This document shows positions 3,878 through 11,901 of a stretch of 64,000 nt of DNA, in pieces. Each line of letters starts with the position of its first letter. The first letter of the stretch is position 1. The stretch lies in contig JAFLDL010000003.1 in assembly GCA_017302435.1 (NCBI GenBank), positions 62,001-126,000 on the forward strand, given 5' to 3'. A program made the translations under genes and the position numbers. Under the pieces are notes generated by a model. The model saw only the letters and a list, made by a program, of their open reading frames with translations. It was not told where the DNA came from and did no database searches. The stretch comes from Candidatus Accumulibacter necessarius. Its GTDB lineage: Bacteria > Pseudomonadota > Gammaproteobacteria > Burkholderiales > Rhodocyclaceae.

Positions 3878-4684
3878 CTAACCGTAACGCCCTTCGATAT
3901 AGTCGGCCGTCTCGCGGTGCTTGGGGGTGACGAACATCTCCTCGGTGAGCGCGTGTTCGACGACCTTGCCCATCAGCATGAACACGCACTCCTCGCTGGC
4001 GCGCCGCGCCTGCGCCATGTTGTGGGTGACGATCAGGATCGTATATTGGCCGCGCAGTTCCCAGAGCAGTTCCTCGACCGCTTCGGTGCCCTTGGGATCG
4101 AGCGCCGAGCACGGTTCGTCCATCAGCAGGACTTTCGGCTTGACCGGCAACAGACGGGCAATGCACAGCTTCTGCTGTTCCTCCAGTGACAGTTCGGTCG
4201 CCTTGCGTTTCAGCTGGTCCTTGACCTTGTCCCAGAGCAGGACCTGGCGCAGCGACTGTTCGACGATCTCGTCCGGCGTTCCCTGCGCGACCTCGCCGCC
4301 ACCCTTGGCGTGCAGCCGGTGACTGAAGAGGATGTTGTCGCGAATCGAGATCGGCAGGGGATTGGGGCGCTGAAAGACCATTCCGACCTGCTTGCGCACC
4401 TGCACCAGTTCGACCTGCGGGTCGTAGATGTTTTCGTTCATGACATGCACGCTGCCCTCGATGCGGACGTAGCCGAGGCGCTCGTTGATGCGGTTCACGC
4501 TGCGCAGGAAGGTGCTCTTGCCGCATCCAGAAGGCCCGATCATCGAGGTGATCAGTCCTTCACGAATGCTCAGATCGACGTCGTAGAGCGCCTGAAAGGT
4601 GCCATACCACAGGTTCAGCTTGCGGCTGTCGATCGCATACCGGGGGATGGGGTGCATGAGCGCAGCGGTCTGTTGGTTGTTCAT
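3878..4684 (-). CDS. pstB: Phosphate ABC transporter ATPase PstB (copy 1, degenerate signature)
   Basis: A 268-residue ATP-binding subunit of the Pst importer, last gene of the operon. Intact: Walker A GPSGCGKST (50-58), Q-loop VFQRP (Gln105), Walker B LLMDEPCSALDP (Asp189, Glu190), H-loop VTHN (His221) and the family ending DYIEGRYG. The ABC signature is not intact: where PstB normally has LSGGQQQRL this protein has LSLEEQQKL (165-173). The start was chosen at MNNQQ, with AAGGA upstream. It lies 82 bases after a second pstB whose lesions are complementary, so the two probably form a heterodimer with one canonical site (inference). Confidence 0.93.
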   Translation of the reverse strand: MNNQQTAALMHPIPRYAIDSRKLNLWYGTFQALYDVDLSIREGLITSMIGPSGCGKSTFLRSVNRINERLGYVRIEGSVHVMNENIYDPQVELVQVRKQVGMVFQRPNPLPISIRDNILFSHRLHAKGGGEVAQGTPDEIVEQSLRQVLLWDKVKDQLKRKATELSLEEQQKLCIARLLPVKPKVLLMDEPCSALDPKGTEAVEELLWELRGQYTILIVTHNMAQARRASEECVFMLMGKVVEHALTEEMFVTPKHRETADYIEGRYG

Positions 4685-4766
4685 CGTATATCGTGTCCTT
4701 GATAGGCAAAGCGGGCATCTCCGGCGAGCCACTGGCGGCTCGCTGCTCCCGGCGGGTGCGGTGGGG

Positions 4767-5582
4767 CTAGCCGAAGCGCCCCTCGACGTAGTCGCGCGTG
4801 CGCTGATCCTTCACCTCGCCGGTGAACAGGTCCTCGGTGACGCCAATTTCGACACACTCGCCGCCGAGGAAGAACGCCGTCCGGTCAGCCAGGCGCCGTG
4901 CCTGCTGCACCAGATTGGTCACCAGGATGATCGTTACCTCCTTGCGCAATTCCTTGAGCACGTCCTCGATGCGCATCGTCGTCACCGGGTCGACGGCGAT
5001 CGAGAACTCGTCGAGCATCAGCAGATCGGGTTCCTGCGACAGCGCCCTGGCAATCGTCAGGCGCTGCTGCTGGCCGCCGGAGAGCAGGCTGCCGAGCGCG
5101 TGGAGGCGGTCCTTGACTTCGTCCCAGAGCGCGGCGCGAGTCAGGCAGCGCTGCACGATGACGTCGAGTTCGGCTTTTTCCTTGATGCCGCGCAGGCGAG
5201 GCGACAGCGCGACATTTTCGTACACCGTCATCGGCAGACCGACCGGCAGTGGAAAGACGACGCCAATGCGGCTGCGCAGGGCATAGACGTTGTTCAGGCG
5301 GCGCGTGTCGCGGCCGTTGAAGCGGATCTCGCCGGCCACCCGCATGCCCGTAGTGAACACGTCCATGCGATTGACCGCCTTGAGGAACGAGGTCTTGCCG
5401 GCGTTGGCCGGACCGATGATGCCGAAGATCTCGTGCTCGCGAATCGACAGATTGACGCCACGCAGGGCCACCGCGTCGCCGTAGCGGATCGTCAGGTCCC
5501 TGACCTCGAGCTTGGGCGGGACAGCGTCGACCGCCGGCGTGGTTGTGCCGGTGGTTGGCGACAGGATTGCGGAATCTACCAT
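4767..5582 (-). CDS. pstB: Phosphate ABC transporter ATPase PstB (copy 2, degenerate ATP site)
   Basis: A 271-residue PstB homologue. Walker A GPANAGKT (57-64) and the signature LSGGQQQRL (167-175) are intact. The Q-loop reads VFPLP, Pro111 for the usual Gln. Walker B is LMLDEFSIAVDP, keeping Asp191 and Glu192 but altering the D-loop. The H-loop reads VTNL, Asn223 for the switch His. The start at 5582 overlaps the pstA stop as ATGGTAG and has AGGGGG upstream; an ATG at 5603 is possible but overlaps more. The losses all fall in the ATP-handling half, the mirror image of the neighbouring pstB. Confidence 0.92.
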   Translation of the reverse strand: MVDSAILSPTTGTTTPAVDAVPPKLEVRDLTIRYGDAVALRGVNLSIREHEIFGIIGPANAGKTSFLKAVNRMDVFTTGMRVAGEIRFNGRDTRRLNNVYALRSRIGVVFPLPVGLPMTVYENVALSPRLRGIKEKAELDVIVQRCLTRAALWDEVKDRLHALGSLLSGGQQQRLTIARALSQEPDLLMLDEFSIAVDPVTTMRIEDVLKELRKEVTIILVTNLVQQARRLADRTAFFLGGECVEIGVTEDLFTGEVKDQRTRDYVEGRFG

Positions 5583-6466
5583 TTCTTTTTCCCCCTGAGC
5601 CACATGCGGAAGGCGATCGAGACGCTGTTCATCGTCAGCACGAGACCGATCAGTACGAGTGCGACGCCAAAGGGGACCTCATCGGCAATCCCCGGCACCT
5701 GCGTCGCCGTGACGAACAGGTGCAGGGAAAGGGCCATGGTTTGGTCGAAGACGCTCTGCGGCAGGAACGGCGTGAAGAAGACGGCGCCGGTGAACATGAT
5801 CGGCGCCGTTTCACCGGCCGTGCGCGATACCTCGAGAATGACACCGGTCAGGATGCCGGTGATCGAGTTCGGGAGAACGACGCGGCGGATCGTCTGCCAG
5901 CGCGTCGCGCCCATGTTCCAGCAGGCCTCGCGAAAGGCCTGTGGCACCGCCTGCAGCGACTCGCGCGTGGCGACGATGACCACCGGCATGGTCATTACCG
6001 CCAGCGTCAGGCTGGCGGCGAGGATGCTGGTGCCGAACTTGAAGAAGAGGACGAAGGCGCCGAGCCCGAACAGGGCGTGGACGATCGACGGAACGCCGGC
6101 GAGATTGATGATCGCCAGGTTGATCGTCCGGGTGAACCAGTTGTCACCGGCGTACTCGCTGAGATAGATCGCGGCGAAGATGCCGATCGGCACCGACAGC
6201 AGCAGCGCGACCGTCACCAGCCAGATGGTCCCGAGCAGCGCCGGGAAGAGGCCGCCGGTGCGCATGCCGTCGGTGGGCGCAGTCAGCAGGAACTCCCAGG
6301 AAATCGCGCCGCCGCCCTTCACCACCAGGGTGCCGAGGATCAGCAGCACCGGTGTGATCAGGAGCAGGGTCATGAGCCCGAAGAGCAGTCGATAGCGTTT
6401 CTGCACGCGTTCGTTGTGGTGGTTCAGGTCGCTGGCCTGAAACATCGTTGGATTGGCGGTGGCCAT
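5576..6466 (-). CDS. pstA: Phosphate ABC transporter permease PstA
   Basis: A 296-residue inner-membrane permease with six hydrophobic segments. The EAA loop lies around EACWNMGATRWQTIRRVVLPNSITGI, the coupling site for PstB. The segment EVSRTAGETAPIMFTG is typical of PstA. It is separated from pstC by three bases and has AAGGGG before the start, so it is translated from the same message. It forms the phosphate channel together with PstC. Confidence 0.95.
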   Translation of the reverse strand: MATANPTMFQASDLNHHNERVQKRYRLLFGLMTLLLITPVLLILGTLVVKGGGAISWEFLLTAPTDGMRTGGLFPALLGTIWLVTVALLLSVPIGIFAAIYLSEYAGDNWFTRTINLAIINLAGVPSIVHALFGLGAFVLFFKFGTSILAASLTLAVMTMPVVIVATRESLQAVPQAFREACWNMGATRWQTIRRVVLPNSITGILTGVILEVSRTAGETAPIMFTGAVFFTPFLPQSVFDQTMALSLHLFVTATQVPGIADEVPFGVALVLIGLVLTMNSVSIAFRMWLRGKKKW

Positions 6467-6469
6467 GGC

Positions 6470-7420
6470 TTACCCCTTGCGTATGCCGCGCACGATCAGA
6501 TCGGCGCTCAGATTGATGATGAAGGTGACGAGGAAGAGGAAGATGCCGATGGTGAACAGCACCTGGTAGTGCTCGCCGCCGACGACCGCCTCACCGAGTT
6601 CGGCGGCGATGGTCGCGGTGAGCGCACGCACCGAGTCGAAGATGCTACCCGGTATGTTGACCGCATGGCCGGTGGCCATCAGCACCGCCATTGTTTCCCC
6701 GAACCCACGACCGACACCAAGCAGCACGCCACCGAGCAGGCCGTTCTTCGCCGCTGGCAGCACCACCTTGTAGATCACCTGCCAGCGGGTCGCGCCCATC
6801 GCTTCGGCTGCCTCGCGATAGCGGTCTGGCACGGCCTTGAGGGCATCCTCGGCGATCGAAGTCATGATCGGCGCCGCCATCAGGCCGAGGATGATGCCGG
6901 CGTTGAGGACGCAGAGGCCCACCGGGATATCGAACCACTTGATGAGTAGCGGATTCATGATCACCAGGCCGATGAAGCCCCAGACCACCGAAGGAATCGC
7001 TGCCAGCAGTTCGACCAGAACCTTCAGCGCTTCGCGCGTCTTTCCGCTGGCAAACTCGGCGATGAAGATGGCGGCGCCGAGCGAGAATGGCACCGCGACC
7101 AGCATCGCCAGCCCGGTGACGCTGGCCGTGCCGGCCATCAGCGCGAGGATGCCGTACTCCGGATCCTCGGCGTCGCTCGGCGACCAGTAAGGGGTGAGGA
7201 AGAACTCGCGGAAGTCCATCTTCTCGAAGACGAAGCCGATTCCTTCCTTGGTGACGAAGAAGAAGATGCCGAGTACGAAGAGGATGGCCGAGATGCCGCA
7301 GACGAAGACGATGACGGCAATCAGCTTGTCGACGTACCAGTCGAGGTTACGGCGGTCGAAATCGGCCGCCGCTTGGGTGTCGGTCGCTCGGCCGCTCAGC
7401 GCCTGCGTACTGGTGCCCAT
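6470..7420 (-). CDS. pstC: Phosphate ABC transporter permease PstC
   Basis: A 316-residue permease. I placed the start at MGTSTQ (7420), which has AGGAGG upstream and follows the phoU stop by one base; a longer frame to 7441 would overlap phoU. The N-terminal domain of about 110 residues (IGFVFEKMDFREFFLTPYWSPS and following) precedes the five core helices. The EAA loop is EAAEAMGATRWQVIYKVVLPAAKNG, and VGRGFGETMAVLMATG is characteristic of PstC. Confidence 0.95.
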   Translation of the reverse strand: MGTSTQALSGRATDTQAAADFDRRNLDWYVDKLIAVIVFVCGISAILFVLGIFFFVTKEGIGFVFEKMDFREFFLTPYWSPSDAEDPEYGILALMAGTASVTGLAMLVAVPFSLGAAIFIAEFASGKTREALKVLVELLAAIPSVVWGFIGLVIMNPLLIKWFDIPVGLCVLNAGIILGLMAAPIMTSIAEDALKAVPDRYREAAEAMGATRWQVIYKVVLPAAKNGLLGGVLLGVGRGFGETMAVLMATGHAVNIPGSIFDSVRALTATIAAELGEAVVGGEHYQVLFTIGIFLFLVTFIINLSADLIVRGIRKG

Positions 7421-7421
7421 C

Positions 7422-8483
7422 TCAGTTGGCCTCCTGGCCACGCAGAACCGTCATCAGATTGCTGACCTGCAGGGCGATCTCCCGACTGAGGATCCGTAGA
7501 TCAGGCTGCGCGCTACCGGGTTGGGTGACTTCCCAGTCGAGCGCCACGGTATGGAAAGGAATCTGTTCGACGTAGGACTTGACCGGCCCCTGCAGGCTGA
7601 CGATGATCTGGAACGTGCCGAGTTCCCGATGATGTGCCGGGATTGCCTGCGGCCGGTGGTTGCCGAGGTCGATTCCCAGATCCTGCAGCAGGGCAATCGA
7701 CTGGGGATCGGTGACGCCGGCAGTCCGGCCGCGACTGTGGTATTCGCCCACCTCCGGGAAATTCTTGCGCGCAATCGCCTCGGCGATCGGGCCGAGCAGG
7801 CTGTTGTCCTCGTCTACAAAGAGGATACGGAAGAACTTTGGCCCCTTGGCCTGGCCGGTGACCGCGAACACCGTGTCTTCACAGATGTTCTTTGCCTGAT
7901 CGGAAACCCTCTCGAGCGAGTTGAACACCGTCAGGTAAGCGAACAGGTCCTTGACGTTGAAGTGCTCGCCCTCGCCGACCAGGTCGCTGAAGGCCATGTC
8001 AAAGGTTCGCTCGACCTGGTCGGCGATGACCATCGTCGCCCTTGCCTTGTCGGCGTTGCCTTCGAGAAATGCATCGACTGCCTGCTTCAGCATCTGCCGC
8101 GATTCGCTGGCCATCAGCTCGATCTCACGTTCCAGCAGCCCCTGCGGAAGAGCGATCTGAACCGCCTCGCGGCAGATCGTGACGGCGTAGTCGCCAATGC
8201 GCTCGAGGGCGACATTGGTATGGACGACGGCCGCCATCAGGCGCAGGTGACTGCCGCTCGGCAGGTGTACGCCGATGAACGCCATGCGCATGCGATCCAG
8301 CTCGTTGCTGACGGCGTTGATCCGGTTGTCGGCCAGGATCGTGGCGTAGGCCAGCCGGTCATCGTCGGCCAGCAGCGCGTGCACGGCATTGTCGAGGGCC
8401 TTCTCGACGAGTCCGGCGAGCAGGGCTACTTGTTGCTTGATCTGGGACAGATCTCTTTCGAGACGTTCTTCGTAATGACTCAT
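7422..8483 (-). CDS. phoU: PhoU fused to an inactive low-molecular-weight phosphatase-like domain
   Basis: A 353-residue protein; PhoU alone is about 235. Residues 1-210 are PhoU: two three-helix bundles with metal motifs ERIGDYA (from Glu94) and ERVSDQAKNI (from Glu191). From about 217 a second domain begins as FRILFVDEDNSLLGPIAEAIARK. This matches the start of low-molecular-weight tyrosine phosphatases and ArsC-type arsenate reductases (ILFVCxGNSxRSxxAEA), but the catalytic Cys and Arg of the CX5R loop are replaced (DEDNSLLG). The start at MSHYEE has AGAGGAAGA upstream. It sits between pstS and pstC, consistent with PhoU's role as Pst-PhoR signalling inhibitor. The added domain may bind phosphate or an oxyanion without catalysis (inference). 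Confidence 0.9.
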   Translation of the reverse strand: MSHYEERLERDLSQIKQQVALLAGLVEKALDNAVHALLADDDRLAYATILADNRINAVSNELDRMRMAFIGVHLPSGSHLRLMAAVVHTNVALERIGDYAVTICREAVQIALPQGLLEREIELMASESRQMLKQAVDAFLEGNADKARATMVIADQVERTFDMAFSDLVGEGEHFNVKDLFAYLTVFNSLERVSDQAKNICEDTVFAVTGQAKGPKFFRILFVDEDNSLLGPIAEAIARKNFPEVGEYHSRGRTAGVTDPQSIALLQDLGIDLGNHRPQAIPAHHRELGTFQIIVSLQGPVKSYVEQIPFHTVALDWEVTQPGSAQPDLRILSREIALQVSNLMTVLRGQEAN

Positions 8484-8524
8484 CGCTGGCTTCTTCCTCT
8501 GGCGCAGGAACATGGGCTTGGGCA

Positions 8525-8562: not shown

Positions 8563-9438
8563 TTACTTGCACTTCACCTTCTTGACCGGTGCGTAGCCTT
8601 CCTTCTCGATGATGCACTGGCCGACGTCGCTCTTGATCCAGTCCATATATTTCTTCACCTCGCCGGTCGGCTCGCCGTTGGTGTACATGAACAGCGGCCG
8701 GGCGATCGGATAGGTACCGTCGAAGGCCGTCTGTTCGGTCGGCTTGACACAGGGCTTGCCGGCTGCGGGCGCGACGCAGAGTGCCTTCATGTGGTCGGTG
8801 ACGTACGCCAGGCCGCTGTAGCCGATTGCGCAGGGGGTTTTCTCGACCAGGTCGGCAACGTCCTTGGAACCGTGCATGTCGAGCGTGCCCTGACGGAACT
8901 TGCCCTTCTCGCCGAGCACGGCCTCCTTGAAATAGGCGTAGGTACCGGAGTTGTTCTGCCGGCTGACGACCACGATCTCGCCCTTGCAGCCGGGAATCGT
9001 GATGCCGAGGTCGCTCCACTTGCTGGCGCCACCGTCGCGCCCGTAGATTTTCGCCAGGTCGGTGACGGTGATCGAGTCGGCCGGGAATTTCTTGTTGACG
9101 AAGATGGCGAGTGCGTCGTAACCAATGATGTGCTCGATCGGTTGCCGGCCCTTGGCCTGCGCTTCCTTGATCTCCTTCTCCGACATCTTGCGGCTGGAAT
9201 TGGCAATGTCGACGGTACCGTTGATCATCGCGGCAATACCGGTGCCGGAACCACCGCCGGACACCGCCACCGCCACCTTGGGATTGATCTTGCCGTACTG
9301 CTCAGCCAGTGACTGGGCCGCATTGACGAGGGTGTCCGAGCCCTTGTTCTGGATCTCGGTTCTGGCGGATGCGCCGGCGGCGGCCACCGCGCCGAGTGTC
9401 AGGACGGCAAGCTGGCGCAACATTGATCGAGAGGTCAT
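8563..9438 (-). CDS. pstS: Phosphate-binding periplasmic protein PstS
   Basis: A 291-residue exported protein with a signal peptide ending near AGASA. Phosphate-pocket motifs of the PstS family are present: GSDTLVN, AVSGGGSGTGIAAMINGTVDIANSSRKM and SRQNNSGTYAYFKEAVLG. It is the first gene of the operon pstS-phoU-pstC-pstA-pstB2-pstB1, and a divergent sensor kinase gene starts 266 bases away. Several Cys near the C-terminus (CVAPAAGKPC, QCIIEKE, KCK) could form disulphides. I could not find a convincing full Pho box upstream. Confidence 0.95.
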   Translation of the reverse strand: MTSRSMLRQLAVLTLGAVAAAGASARTEIQNKGSDTLVNAAQSLAEQYGKINPKVAVAVSGGGSGTGIAAMINGTVDIANSSRKMSEKEIKEAQAKGRQPIEHIIGYDALAIFVNKKFPADSITVTDLAKIYGRDGGASKWSDLGITIPGCKGEIVVVSRQNNSGTYAYFKEAVLGEKGKFRQGTLDMHGSKDVADLVEKTPCAIGYSGLAYVTDHMKALCVAPAAGKPCVKPTEQTAFDGTYPIARPLFMYTNGEPTGEVKKYMDWIKSDVGQCIIEKEGYAPVKKVKCK

Positions 9439-9704
9439 CTGTATTTCTCCGGGGATTGTTGGGTTGCTGGAATCGTCGCCTGCCGATGACAGGACGAGCC
9501 ATCATGGCAGGCTTCTGCGCGGCTGAAAATTCGGGCGGCAACGTAAGTGATGCTGCCAGTGCGGTGAGCGTCGGGACGTTCCTCGACTGACGCAGCAGCG
9601 GGCATCCGGGGCAGCCGTAAGGGAAACGCGTACGCAATTTGCCAATACCCAAACCGCCGCGGCACGGGCACAATGGGGACTCGATCAACCCGTCAGGGCC
9701 CCCT

Positions 9705-11288
9705 ATGCCGAAAACGGCGATCCGGCGGCTCGGTTGGCGCGACGCCCTGCTGCTCGTTGGCGGCTATCTCGCGCTTGACTGGGCAAGCCACATCCACCGT
9801 CTGCACGGACTCGATGTCACGCCATGGAGCCCGGCACCGGCACTCGGCCTGCTCTTTCTGGTGCGCTACGGCGGCCAGGCTGCGGCACCGCTGGCGCTGG
9901 CCATCCTCACCGCCGACGCGTGGGTGCGCGAGCTGTCGCTGCCCTGGCTGCTGGCCTGCGGCCTGGCGCTGCAACTCACCGCCGGCTACTGGCTGATCGC
10001 CGGGATCCTGAGGCGCCGGCTGGGCAGCAAGGGGATGTTCGTCAACCGGCGTGGCCTCATCGACTGGGTGACGATCACGGTCATCGGTACCCTGCTCAAC
10101 AGTCTGCTGTTCATTGCCGGGCTGACCCTGGCCGGATACCTGCCGCGCGGGGCTGCAGCCGAGGCGCTGCTGCCGTACTGGCTGGGTGACGTGGTCGGCG
10201 TTCTGATCTCGATGCCGCTGCTCGCCATGCTGCTCGACGAACGCGGCCGCGTCCGCCTGCGCCGCCTGCTCCTTGGCCGTGAATCGCTGAGCCTGCTGAC
10301 CACCGGCGGCGTCCTGGTATTCACCTTTGTCGCCGGCAAGATGACCGAGTTCAAGTACTTCCCGGTGCTGTTCCTGCCCATCGCCTGGGCAGCCGCCAGG
10401 CAGGGCCTGGCCGGCGCGGTGTTGACCATCGGTCTGACCCAGGTCGGCGTCATCCTGGCCACGCACCTGCTCGGCCTCTCCCCGCTCATTCTGATCGAAC
10501 TGGAAGTGCTGGTGCTGGTCCTCGCCCTGTCGGGATTCTTCATCGGCGTCGTCGTCGACGAGAAGCAGCGGCTGGGTGCCGAGTTGCAACAAACGCTGCG
10601 GCTCGCCGCGGCCGGCGAGATGGCAGGGGCGCTGTCACACGAACTGCATCAGCCGCTGACCGCACTGCTTGCCTACACGCGGGCGTGTCAGCAGTTGCTC
10701 GCACAAGGAGAGAGCGGCGAACGACTGCGCGACGTGATTGATCGTGTGGTGGCCGAATCGCAGCGCGCGGCCGAAGTGGTCAGTCGCCTGCGCGACTTCT
10801 TTCGCACCGGTACGACCCGGCTCGAGCGGATCTGGCTGCGCGAACTGCTGTCGTCGGCGGCCTCGCGCTTTGCCGCGCAAGCGAAGCAGCAAGGTGTCGA
10901 GCTGCAGCTGCAGCCAGCGCCACCGTGCGCGCTGTGGGCCGACCGACTGCAGCTCGAAGTGGTCTTGCGCAACCTGCTCGCCAACGCCTTCGAGGCGGCT
11001 GCCGAACGACCGGAGGCAAGGCGTCAGGTGCGCGTTTCGGCACAGCAGGACAGCGCTGGAAGTGTCTGCATCACGATCGAGGACAGCGGGGCAGGCGTAT
11101 CGGAGGAAATGGTGGAACATCTGTTCGAAGCGTTTCAATCATCGAAGGCCAGCGGCATGGGGCTTGGCCTGCCGATCAGCCGGGCGATCATCGAGGCGCA
11201 CGGCGGTACGCTGTGGGCCGAGGTGGCCGATCACGGCGTGTTCAAGGTGGTTCTGCCGATCGGGGAGGCAGCCGACCATGCCACATAG
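9705..11288 (+). CDS. MASE1-domain sensor histidine kinase
   Basis: About 527 residues from the chosen start MPKTAIRR. Eight or so hydrophobic segments cover residues 10-300 (MASE1-like: WRDALLLVGGYLALDW, WSPAPALGLLFLVRYG, LPYWLGDVVGVLISMPLLAML). An H-box ALSHELHQPLTALLAYTRAC follows near residue 310. The catalytic ATPase has an N-box (LLANAFEAA), GAGVSE and MGLGLPISRAIIEAHGG. It overlaps the response regulator gene by 11 bases, so the two form a two-component pair. The HQPL type of H-box and FixJ-like partner are as in the DctB/FixL/TodS-related class. The signal sensed is unknown. It is divergent from pstS. Confidence 0.88.
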   Translation: MPKTAIRRLGWRDALLLVGGYLALDWASHIHRLHGLDVTPWSPAPALGLLFLVRYGGQAAAPLALAILTADAWVRELSLPWLLACGLALQLTAGYWLIAGILRRRLGSKGMFVNRRGLIDWVTITVIGTLLNSLLFIAGLTLAGYLPRGAAAEALLPYWLGDVVGVLISMPLLAMLLDERGRVRLRRLLLGRESLSLLTTGGVLVFTFVAGKMTEFKYFPVLFLPIAWAAARQGLAGAVLTIGLTQVGVILATHLLGLSPLILIELEVLVLVLALSGFFIGVVVDEKQRLGAELQQTLRLAAAGEMAGALSHELHQPLTALLAYTRACQQLLAQGESGERLRDVIDRVVAESQRAAEVVSRLRDFFRTGTTRLERIWLRELLSSAASRFAAQAKQQGVELQLQPAPPCALWADRLQLEVVLRNLLANAFEAAAERPEARRQVRVSAQQDSAGSVCITIEDSGAGVSEEMVEHLFEAFQSSKASGMGLGLPISRAIIEAHGGTLWAEVADHGVFKVVLPIGEAADHAT

Positions 11289-11901
11289 AGGAAACACGGT
11301 GTTCATCGTCGAGGATGATCATTCGGTGCGTGATGCGCTGGGACTCCTGCTGGGCCTGCAGGGTCTTTCTGTGGCGCTGTTCGCCGATGCCGAGAGCTTC
11401 CTTGCCGCCCGCCGTCCCGACTGGTACGGCTGCCTGCTGGTCGACATCCGCATGCCGGGTATGGATGGTCTCACCCTGCAGAAGCGTCTCCGGGAAAGTG
11501 GCTGCTGGCTGCCGGTGATCGTGATGACCGGCCACGGCGACGTCGAATCAGCGCGGCAGGCTTTCCGCAGCGATGCGGTCGACTTCCTCGAGAAACCGAT
11601 CGATCATGCCAGGCTCCTGTCGGCGATCGAAGAAGCATTCGCCCGCCAGGATCTGCGCGAGGACGATCAGGAGCGCAACGCCGCTACGGCGACGCTCCTG
11701 GATACCCTGACGCCACGCGAAAGGGAAGTCATGGAACAGGTGGTTGCCGGTCGGCACAATCGTGAGATCGCCCATCTACTGGACATCAGTCCGCGCACGG
11801 TTGAAGTGCACAAGGCGCGGTTGCTGGCCAAGCTGCAGGTCGACAGCATCGCCGATCTGGTTCGGCTGAGCTTGCGAGTCGCGGGCAAGAGCCGTGGCTG
11901 A
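11278..11901 (+). CDS. FixJ/NarL-type response regulator
   Basis: A 207-residue regulator starting at the ATG inside the end of the kinase gene. The receiver domain has acidic residues EDD (12-14), phospho-acceptor Asp56 in LLVDIRMPGMDG, Thr in VIVMTGHGD and Lys in LEKP. The output domain (LTPREREVMEQVVAGRHNREIAHLLDISPRTVEVHKARLLAKL) is a LuxR-type helix-turn-helix of the FixJ branch. Targets are unknown. The unusual genes directly downstream and the divergent pst operon are candidates by position only. Confidence 0.92.
   Translation: MPHRGNTVFIVEDDHSVRDALGLLLGLQGLSVALFADAESFLAARRPDWYGCLLVDIRMPGMDGLTLQKRLRESGCWLPVIVMTGHGDVESARQAFRSDAVDFLEKPIDHARLLSAIEEAFARQDLREDDQERNAATATLLDTLTPREREVMEQVVAGRHNREIAHLLDISPRTVEVHKARLLAKLQVDSIADLVRLSLRVAGKSRG

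Follow-up and report, generated by a model that had tools for sequence, protein, structure and literature searches.

Why should a single pst operon of Candidatus Accumulibacter necessarius carry two ATPase genes, each of which lacks a different part of the usual motif set? In textbook accounts of the Pst importer, the motor consists of two identical PstB chains. We addressed this question in a window of 64,000 nucleotides (contig JAFLDL010000003.1, positions 62,001 to 126,000), in which the two genes, here called B1 (copy 1) and B2 (copy 2), lie next to each other on the minus strand.

The operon and its two ATPases

The genes run in the order pstS, phoU, pstC, pstA, B2, B1, with a single pstC and a single pstA beside the two ATPase genes (Table 1). 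The open reading frames of B1 (3878-4732) and B2 (4767-5603) both open with GTG; the likelier start of B1 is the ATG at 4684, preceded by AAGGA, and the ATG of B2 at 5582 overlaps the pstA stop. TIGR00972 (PstB) was the best family for both B1 (319.2 bits) and B2 (277.7 bits), and both scored below its curated cut-off of 343.2. Their gene company is that expected of a PstB: PstS, PstC, and PstA from the same operon all exceed their cut-offs. The two permeases match PF00528 and the Pst permease families and are of the importer type, with no exporter-type membrane domain. The phoU product scored 124.2 bits with TIGR02135 (cut-off 130.25) and exceeded the cut-off of PF01895.

Table 1. Coordinates of the pst genes and ATPase motifs in the window
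Feature	Position	Strand	Remark
B1 (copy 1), PstB-like ATPase	3878..4684	-	ORF open from GTG at 4732
B1 H-loop His (CAC), intact	4022..4024	-	codons read
B1 signature LSLEE instead of LSGGQ; Glu at second Gly	4178..4192	-	codons read
B1 Q-loop Gln (CAG), intact	4370..4372	-	codons read
B2 (copy 2), PstB-like ATPase	4767..5582	-	ORF open from GTG at 5603
B2 H-loop position Asn (AAT), not His	4914..4916	-	codons read
B2 signature LSGGQ, intact	5070..5084	-	codons read
B2 Q-loop position Pro (CCA), not Gln	5250..5252	-	codons read
pstA, permease	5576..6466	-	TIGR00974 259 bits, above cut-off; overlaps B2 start
pstC, permease	6470..7441	-	TIGR02138 276.9 bits, above cut-off
phoU fused to low-molecular-weight phosphatase/arsenate-reductase-like domain	7422..8513	-	catalytic-Cys position Asp
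pstS, phosphate-binding protein	8563..9438	-	TIGR02136 236 bits, above cut-off

A sequence-only reading had described B1 as keeping Walker A, the Q-loop, Walker B, and the H-loop His while carrying LSLEE, and B2 as keeping LSGGQ with Pro at the Q-loop, Asn at the H-loop, and an altered D-loop. Both descriptions hold codon by codon. Neither chain combines the intact Q-loop, LSGGQ, and H-loop that are characteristic of PstB. Walker A and Walker B of B1 are intact, with Walker A reading GPSGCGKS; Walker A of B2 reads GPANAGKT and its D-loop SIAVD. Beyond what had been described, the Walker A Lys, the Asp-Glu of Walker B (including the catalytic Glu), and the D-loop Asp are all retained in B2. Both chains are predicted to have the PstB fold: single-chain AlphaFold2 models gave a mean pLDDT of 86.1 for B1 and 84.6 for B2, and the closest solved chains to both were E. 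coli PstB (9k3s/9k3x; TM-score 0.91-0.94 by target length).

Several features of the surrounding genes were also noted. Genes for a MASE1 histidine kinase (9639-11288) and a LuxR-type response regulator (11272-11901) diverge from pstS. The kinase gene also adjoins pstS in locus L084 and was not found in L085, L086, L087, L088, L089, L095, or L108, of which three (L086, L088, and L108) have hardly any sequence or none ahead of the operon. The E. coli-type Pho-box consensus matched 11 times in the window, against 13.5 expected, and not at all in 9400-9720 before pstS. A pattern for the permease EAA loops (coupling helices) missed many of them in asymmetric and canonical systems and matched wrong reading frames.

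PhoU matches occur in 23 of the 28 loci examined (L084-L109, L121, and the window at 7422-8513), and 21 of these proteins carry the phosphatase/arsenate-reductase-like tail. At the position of the catalytic Cys, placed by the P-loop motif, the 21 fused proteins have Asp (18), Gly (2), or Cys (L098 only). Such an inactive phosphatase domain attached to PhoU may serve to sense phosphate. Among the matches listed in the literature searched, judged by title and start of abstract, we found no account of PhoU fused to this domain.

Tandem pairs in other genomes

We tallied PstB-like genes in 176 loci with 342 open reading frames, 316 of them distinct after duplicates were merged; frames below 85 bits were left out, 13 duplicate loci were merged, and 9 partial frames were not classed. 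The paired substitutions co-occur well outside the genome of origin: 142 distinct loci have both types side by side, although similarity to B2 was the criterion by which these loci were retrieved, and the pairs are sequences sharing ancestry, not independent events. In all 142 tandem pairs (distinct in B2; 18 from Accumulibacter), the genes share a strand with B2 upstream of B1, and the median gap between their aligned ends is 32 bases. In these pairs and in the window, B1 and B2 come from separate frames, with no fusion of the RbsA/NupO type.

The motif states are close to invariant. All 151 distinct B2 proteins have Asn at the H-loop position and none has Gln at the Q-loop position (Pro 114, Ala 37); the signature is LSGGQ in 150 and ISGGQ in one. 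None of the 142 distinct B1 proteins has LSGGQ, the second signature Gly being replaced by Glu (128), Asp (13), or Ala (1), while the Q-loop Gln and Walker B Asp-Glu are kept in every one and the H-loop His in 141 (Tyr in L186). Because the Walker A Lys and Walker B Asp-Glu are present in 151 of 151 B2 proteins, the losses are limited to the Q- and H-loops of B2 and the signature of B1. The Walker A Lys is present in 141 of 142 B1 proteins, the exception being L063, where B1 is split over two frames; this split, in an Accumulibacter genome, is an assembly error or a broken copy. The B1 Walker A reads GPSGCGK in 152 of 154 entries. That of B2 begins GPAN in 98 of 164, otherwise mostly GPA followed by G, Q, R, S, K, or H, and GPSG or GPSN in 11. 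This is a milder alteration of the B2 pocket, perhaps matched to the acidic B1 signature.

The scattered, non-complementary losses that the sequence-only reading had named as contrary evidence did not appear: losses were complementary throughout the 142 distinct pairs and left one complete site, as is typical of heterodimeric ABC transporters with one degenerate site. For comparison, we assembled PstB-like frames above 170 bits from outside the pair set (n = 101, not de-duplicated; one truncated and set aside). All 100 full-length controls keep the Q-loop Gln, H-loop His, and GGQ; in 8 of them the first Leu is replaced by Met or Ile, and in 2 the Walker B Glu is followed by Ala. The complementary losses exceed chance, with 142 distinct pairs against 100 intact controls, and are a fixed trait.

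The remaining frames of the tally were 11 canonical, 9 partial, and 3 odd. Ten of the canonical frames lie in pairless loci and one is a remote ABC gene in L097; the 12 loci without a complete B1 or B2 comprise 10 canonical loci and 2 in which B2 is cut. No canonical PstB neighbors a B2-type gene in the 176 loci, the remote gene of L097 lying 3-4 kb upstream. Nine B2 genes have no complete adjacent B1, and in seven the contig ends within or just before B1. The others are L260, whose contig stops 456 bases past B2 and in which no B1 fragment was recognized there or elsewhere in the draft genome, and L232, which we rejected as a lone B2 since another contig of its genome gave a B1-type match of 395.6 bits.

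In two loci, a third, degenerate PstB-like ABC gene (Pfam ABC_tran) adjoins the B2-B1 pair (L099:8480-9277 and L102:7402-8286). The signatures of these genes are LSIGQ and LTTSM, respectively, with Asn at the H-loop; Q, H, and part of the signature are lost. These third genes count against a simple two-state picture.

B2 is present in 19 of 28 Accumulibacter genomes, including its own, at 83-100% identity, and its relatives in named Accumulibacter records are 84-86% identical. In a scan of genome contigs with B2 (the best 80 of 585 confirmed matches listed), 27 loci reached ≥54% identity, including two contig-end fragments; all further matches among those listed were at 49% identity or lower. 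Within these 27 loci, pstC, pstA, B2, and B1 run consecutively wherever the contig is long enough (with longer gaps in L099 and L101), every complete B2 has the Q-loop Pro and H-loop Asn, and every complete B1 lacks LSGGQ and keeps Q and H. The position of phoU varies: it follows pstS in 14 loci, precedes it in L098, L101, L104, L105, and L106, and lies elsewhere in L099 and L102; L088 begins at phoU, and L096, L097, L100, L103, and L107 gave no PhoU match. Complete pairs occur in named records of eight phyla (Pseudomonadota, Planctomycetota, Rhodothermota, Acidobacteriota, Ca. Poribacteria, Verrucomicrobiota, Bdellovibrionota, and Myxococcota), the labels being those of record titles for metagenome-assembled genomes. 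A record from Nitrospirota also carries both genes, its B1 being truncated at the contig end.

We then surveyed individual phyla. In that of the Acidobacteriota record (247 genomes), a core B2 (≥409 bits) was found in 28 genomes and a core B1 (≥426.9 bits) in 27 of the same 28, the last being cut by a contig end; with both profiles searched, there was no core B1 without a core B2 in the same genome. Seventeen of 40 lower-scoring places in this phylum were fetched and yielded 3 canonical genes and 14 looser pairs, in which the upstream gene has Ala at the Q-loop, Asn at the H-loop, and SGLD as D-loop, and the downstream gene has LSLEQ, LSLEE, LTGEQ, or LSGEQ. Bit score did not cleanly separate asymmetric from ordinary PstB. 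Since matches of 287-318 bits to the first B2 profile were of both kinds, a wider profile (A3, both forms) was used afterwards. It placed the asymmetric type in 24 of 349 Pseudomonadota genomes (≥392 bits; 24 of 28 places read, with reading extended down to the next six matches, at 347-349 bits, all canonical) and in 29 of 246 genomes of the phylum of the Planctomycetota record (≥352 bits; 29 of 29 read, and the one match read below threshold, at 346.6 bits, canonical). Among matches listed down to E 1e-104, it was found in at least 14 of 240 Verrucomicrobiota genomes and at least 11 of 247 in the phylum of the Rhodothermales record; all 25 of these places were read within the tally.

To examine descent, we removed the motif columns and built an unrooted tree from 38 of the 142 pairs together with 31 of the 46 canonical sequences. 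One branch set off all 38 B1 sequences and another all 38 B2 sequences (ultrafast bootstrap/SH-aLRT 100/97 and 100/96). The three motif states require two changes on this tree, the minimum possible, so one origin per state is enough. A larger quick tree, which omitted both odd third ABC genes, agreed with the split. Distances among B1 and among B2 sequences correlate (r = 0.879, 38 pairs; 0 of 2000 permutations as high), as would be expected of genes traveling together; joint inheritance within a single operon would also produce such a correlation, which does not prove contact between the chains. Within Accumulibacter, the median pairwise dN/dS was 0.074 for B1 (17 sequences), 0.145 for B2 (19), and 0.085 for PstA (18), counting frames with at least 235 aligned residues. 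Both ATPases are, by this measure, under purifying selection.

Two Gemmatimonadota tandem pairs (L154 and L155), with SGGQ, Q, and H in both genes, weakly join the B2 branch in the quick tree (support 80). They may illustrate how the genes looked before the losses.

A predicted division of labor between the ATP sites

According to the available part of one review (PMC7756269), ABC dimers hold each ATP between the signature of one chain and the Walker A/B motifs and Q- and H-loops of its partner. In a B1:B2 dimer, site I would combine Walker A/B, Q, and H of B1 with LSGGQ of B2; it would be complete and should hydrolyze ATP. Site II would combine Walker A/B of B2, with Pro and Asn at the Q and H positions, with LSLEE of B1, and should hydrolyze poorly or not at all. 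It should still hold nucleotide, because B2 keeps the Lys and the Asp-Glu. One hydrolysis event would drive each transport cycle, and site II would act as a hinge or lock, as has been proposed for heterodimeric exporters. The operon is, in our judgment, likely to encode a phosphate importer of the Pst type that is powered by a heterodimer of B1 and B2, in which one ATP site is competent for hydrolysis and the other is degenerate. From the motifs, we infer the pairing of the two chains, binding without hydrolysis at site II, and one ATP per phosphate. The earlier proposal of one canonical site (B1 Walker, B2 signature) and one degenerate site is supported at the sequence level by the 142 distinct complementary pairs, and the asymmetric pair is supported in this way far beyond its own genome.

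Published mutants bear on how silent site II would be. In the text available from PMC4459825, a change of the second signature Gly, the position of CFTR G551D, lowers hydrolysis in ABCB10, and in TAP, changing a Gly of the C-loop reduces hydrolysis but does not reduce ATP binding. For MRP1, the accessible portion of the review (PMC7756269) reports that changing the H-loop His to Asn or Gln in NBS2 kept wild-type-like transport and that Q-loop Gln changes are not tied directly to hydrolysis or asymmetry. The B2 losses alone are therefore not necessarily enough to silence site II, and retention of the Walker B Glu in B2 is in line with this. Both sites might even hydrolyze, with Asn and Pro/Ala of B2 and the acidic B1 signature forming an alternative active site II, as the invariant Walker A Lys and Walker B Glu of B2 and the MRP1 results would allow; we regard this as quite improbable, because three elements of one site are altered together and because of the effect of the signature Gly in ABCB10. 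Conversely, the acidic B1 signature might repel ATP and leave site II empty.

The sequence-only reading had named a normal pstB elsewhere, pairing with pstA and pstC, as evidence against a heterodimer. Such a gene is indeed present: the same genome encodes a canonical PstB (C56, 384.9 bits) in a second, canonical pstSCAB system. It has its own pstA and pstC, however, and of the 27 other pair-bearing genomes (those behind the loci of the B2 scan, from the best 80 of 585 matches listed), 11 have a canonical PstB above the cut-off and 16, mostly drafts, show none; two of the 16 (G242 and G245) carry the odd third ABC gene. As nearly all pair-bearing genomes are drafts, any one absence may reflect a gap in the assembly. 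Any need for pairing with a canonical PstB is weakened by these 16 genomes, and the pair may be the only Pst system in some species. In principle, the canonical PstB of the same genome might partner B1 or B2. That B1 and B2 each work with it or as homodimers, and not together, is nonetheless very unlikely: a B1 homodimer would lack LSGGQ and a B2 homodimer Q and H at either site, one pstC and one pstA accompany both genes, and the 16 genomes offer no such partner above the cut-off.

The pair could also have a sensing or regulatory role, in place of pumping or in addition to it, with asymmetric nucleotide-binding domains that gate PstCA and signal to PhoU while the canonical Pst transports. SUR1 uses a degenerate site in this way, the canonical system is at hand in the same genome, and the loss of the catalytic Cys in 20 of 21 aligned fused PhoU proteins hints at ligand sensing. 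We consider this reading unlikely, given the complete site I, the family scores of PstS, PstC, and PstA, and the 16 genomes, mostly drafts, that show no canonical PstB above the cut-off. Finally, motif losses in both copies, scores below the PstB cut-off, and the split B1 of L063 could suggest duplicates in decay, one copy becoming a pseudogene. The low dN/dS in Accumulibacter led us to reject a pseudogene, and recurrence of the same losses in distinct pairs across eight named phyla, together with confidently predicted folds for both chains, makes decay exceedingly improbable.

Returning to the heterodimeric importer, we tentatively propose, with a little less than even confidence, a Pst branch in at least eight named phyla that burns one ATP at B1 per cycle and uses the second nucleotide as a clamp in a permanently crippled site. 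Such an arrangement would give each ATPase a set place, one beneath PstC and the other beneath PstA, and would halve the ATP cost of phosphate scavenging.

Comparison with known systems

A fixed natural split of ATP sites in an importer would be a tool for asking how many ATP molecules are used per transported molecule, and the pair bears on whether degenerate sites serve importers as they do TAP, CFTR-like, and multidrug exporters. An acidic change at the signature Gly equivalent to CFTR G551D, as that position is given in the available text of PMC4459825, is here kept by selection and is not a disease allele. Ca. Accumulibacter is the phosphate-accumulating organism of wastewater plants; Accumulibacter papers, in the portions accessible to us, treat the pst genes as one high-affinity system (PMC11131965, PMC8407102, PMC12604563), whereas this genome has two unlike Pst systems. 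Among the matches listed in the literature searched (PstB, tandem pstB, degenerate importers, DppABCD, and Accumulibacter Pst), a scope that leaves most subscription journals and preprints outside, we found no account of asymmetric PstB pairs.

The operon resembles E. coli PstSCAB (9k3s, 9k3x), its best structural match, in encoding PstS, PstC, PstA, PstB-like, and PhoU proteins. E. coli has one PstB sequence, present as two chains per entry, whereas two diverged ATPases below the family cut-off are found here.

The heterodimeric exporters TM287/288, TmrAB, TAP, and BmrCD have one canonical and one degenerate site through complementary motif loss. B1 and B2 are like them in this motif loss, but the permeases beside B1 and B2 are of the importer type (PF00528). 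Degenerate sites can also have a changed Walker B Glu, replaced by Met in BSEP and Ser in ABCC7 according to the part of PMC7756269 available; in contrast, B2 keeps this Glu and loses the Q- and H-loop residues. The sequence-only reading had placed such asymmetry among exporters and outside the textbook Pst. The contrast between exporters and importers was drawn too sharply, since the accessible text of PMC11466899 describes RbsA and NupO as fused importers with one degenerate site. The predicted Pst importer would, like them, have one degenerate site. RbsA and NupO, as far as that text goes, are type II systems with two nucleotide-binding domains per chain and have lost the Walker A Lys in the second, whereas B1 and B2 are separate genes accompanied by Pst permeases, and both keep this Lys.

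Tandem pstB genes within a single pst operon are also known from Firmicutes, as PstB1/PstB2 of Enterococcus faecalis and PstBA/PstBB of B. subtilis, and the B. subtilis transporter has been modeled with PstBA and PstBB together (PMC11466899, text available in part). The available sections of PMC12096839 describe PstB1 and PstB2 as functionally non-equivalent, with tandem pstB paralogs said to have been unstudied before, and report Walker A/B, LSGGQ, and the H-loop in both. Four tandem pairs among the control loci (L120, L154, L155, and L161) likewise have SGGQ, Q, and H in both genes. Unlike E. faecalis PstB1 and PstB2, which keep the canonical motifs, B1 and B2 have complementary losses.
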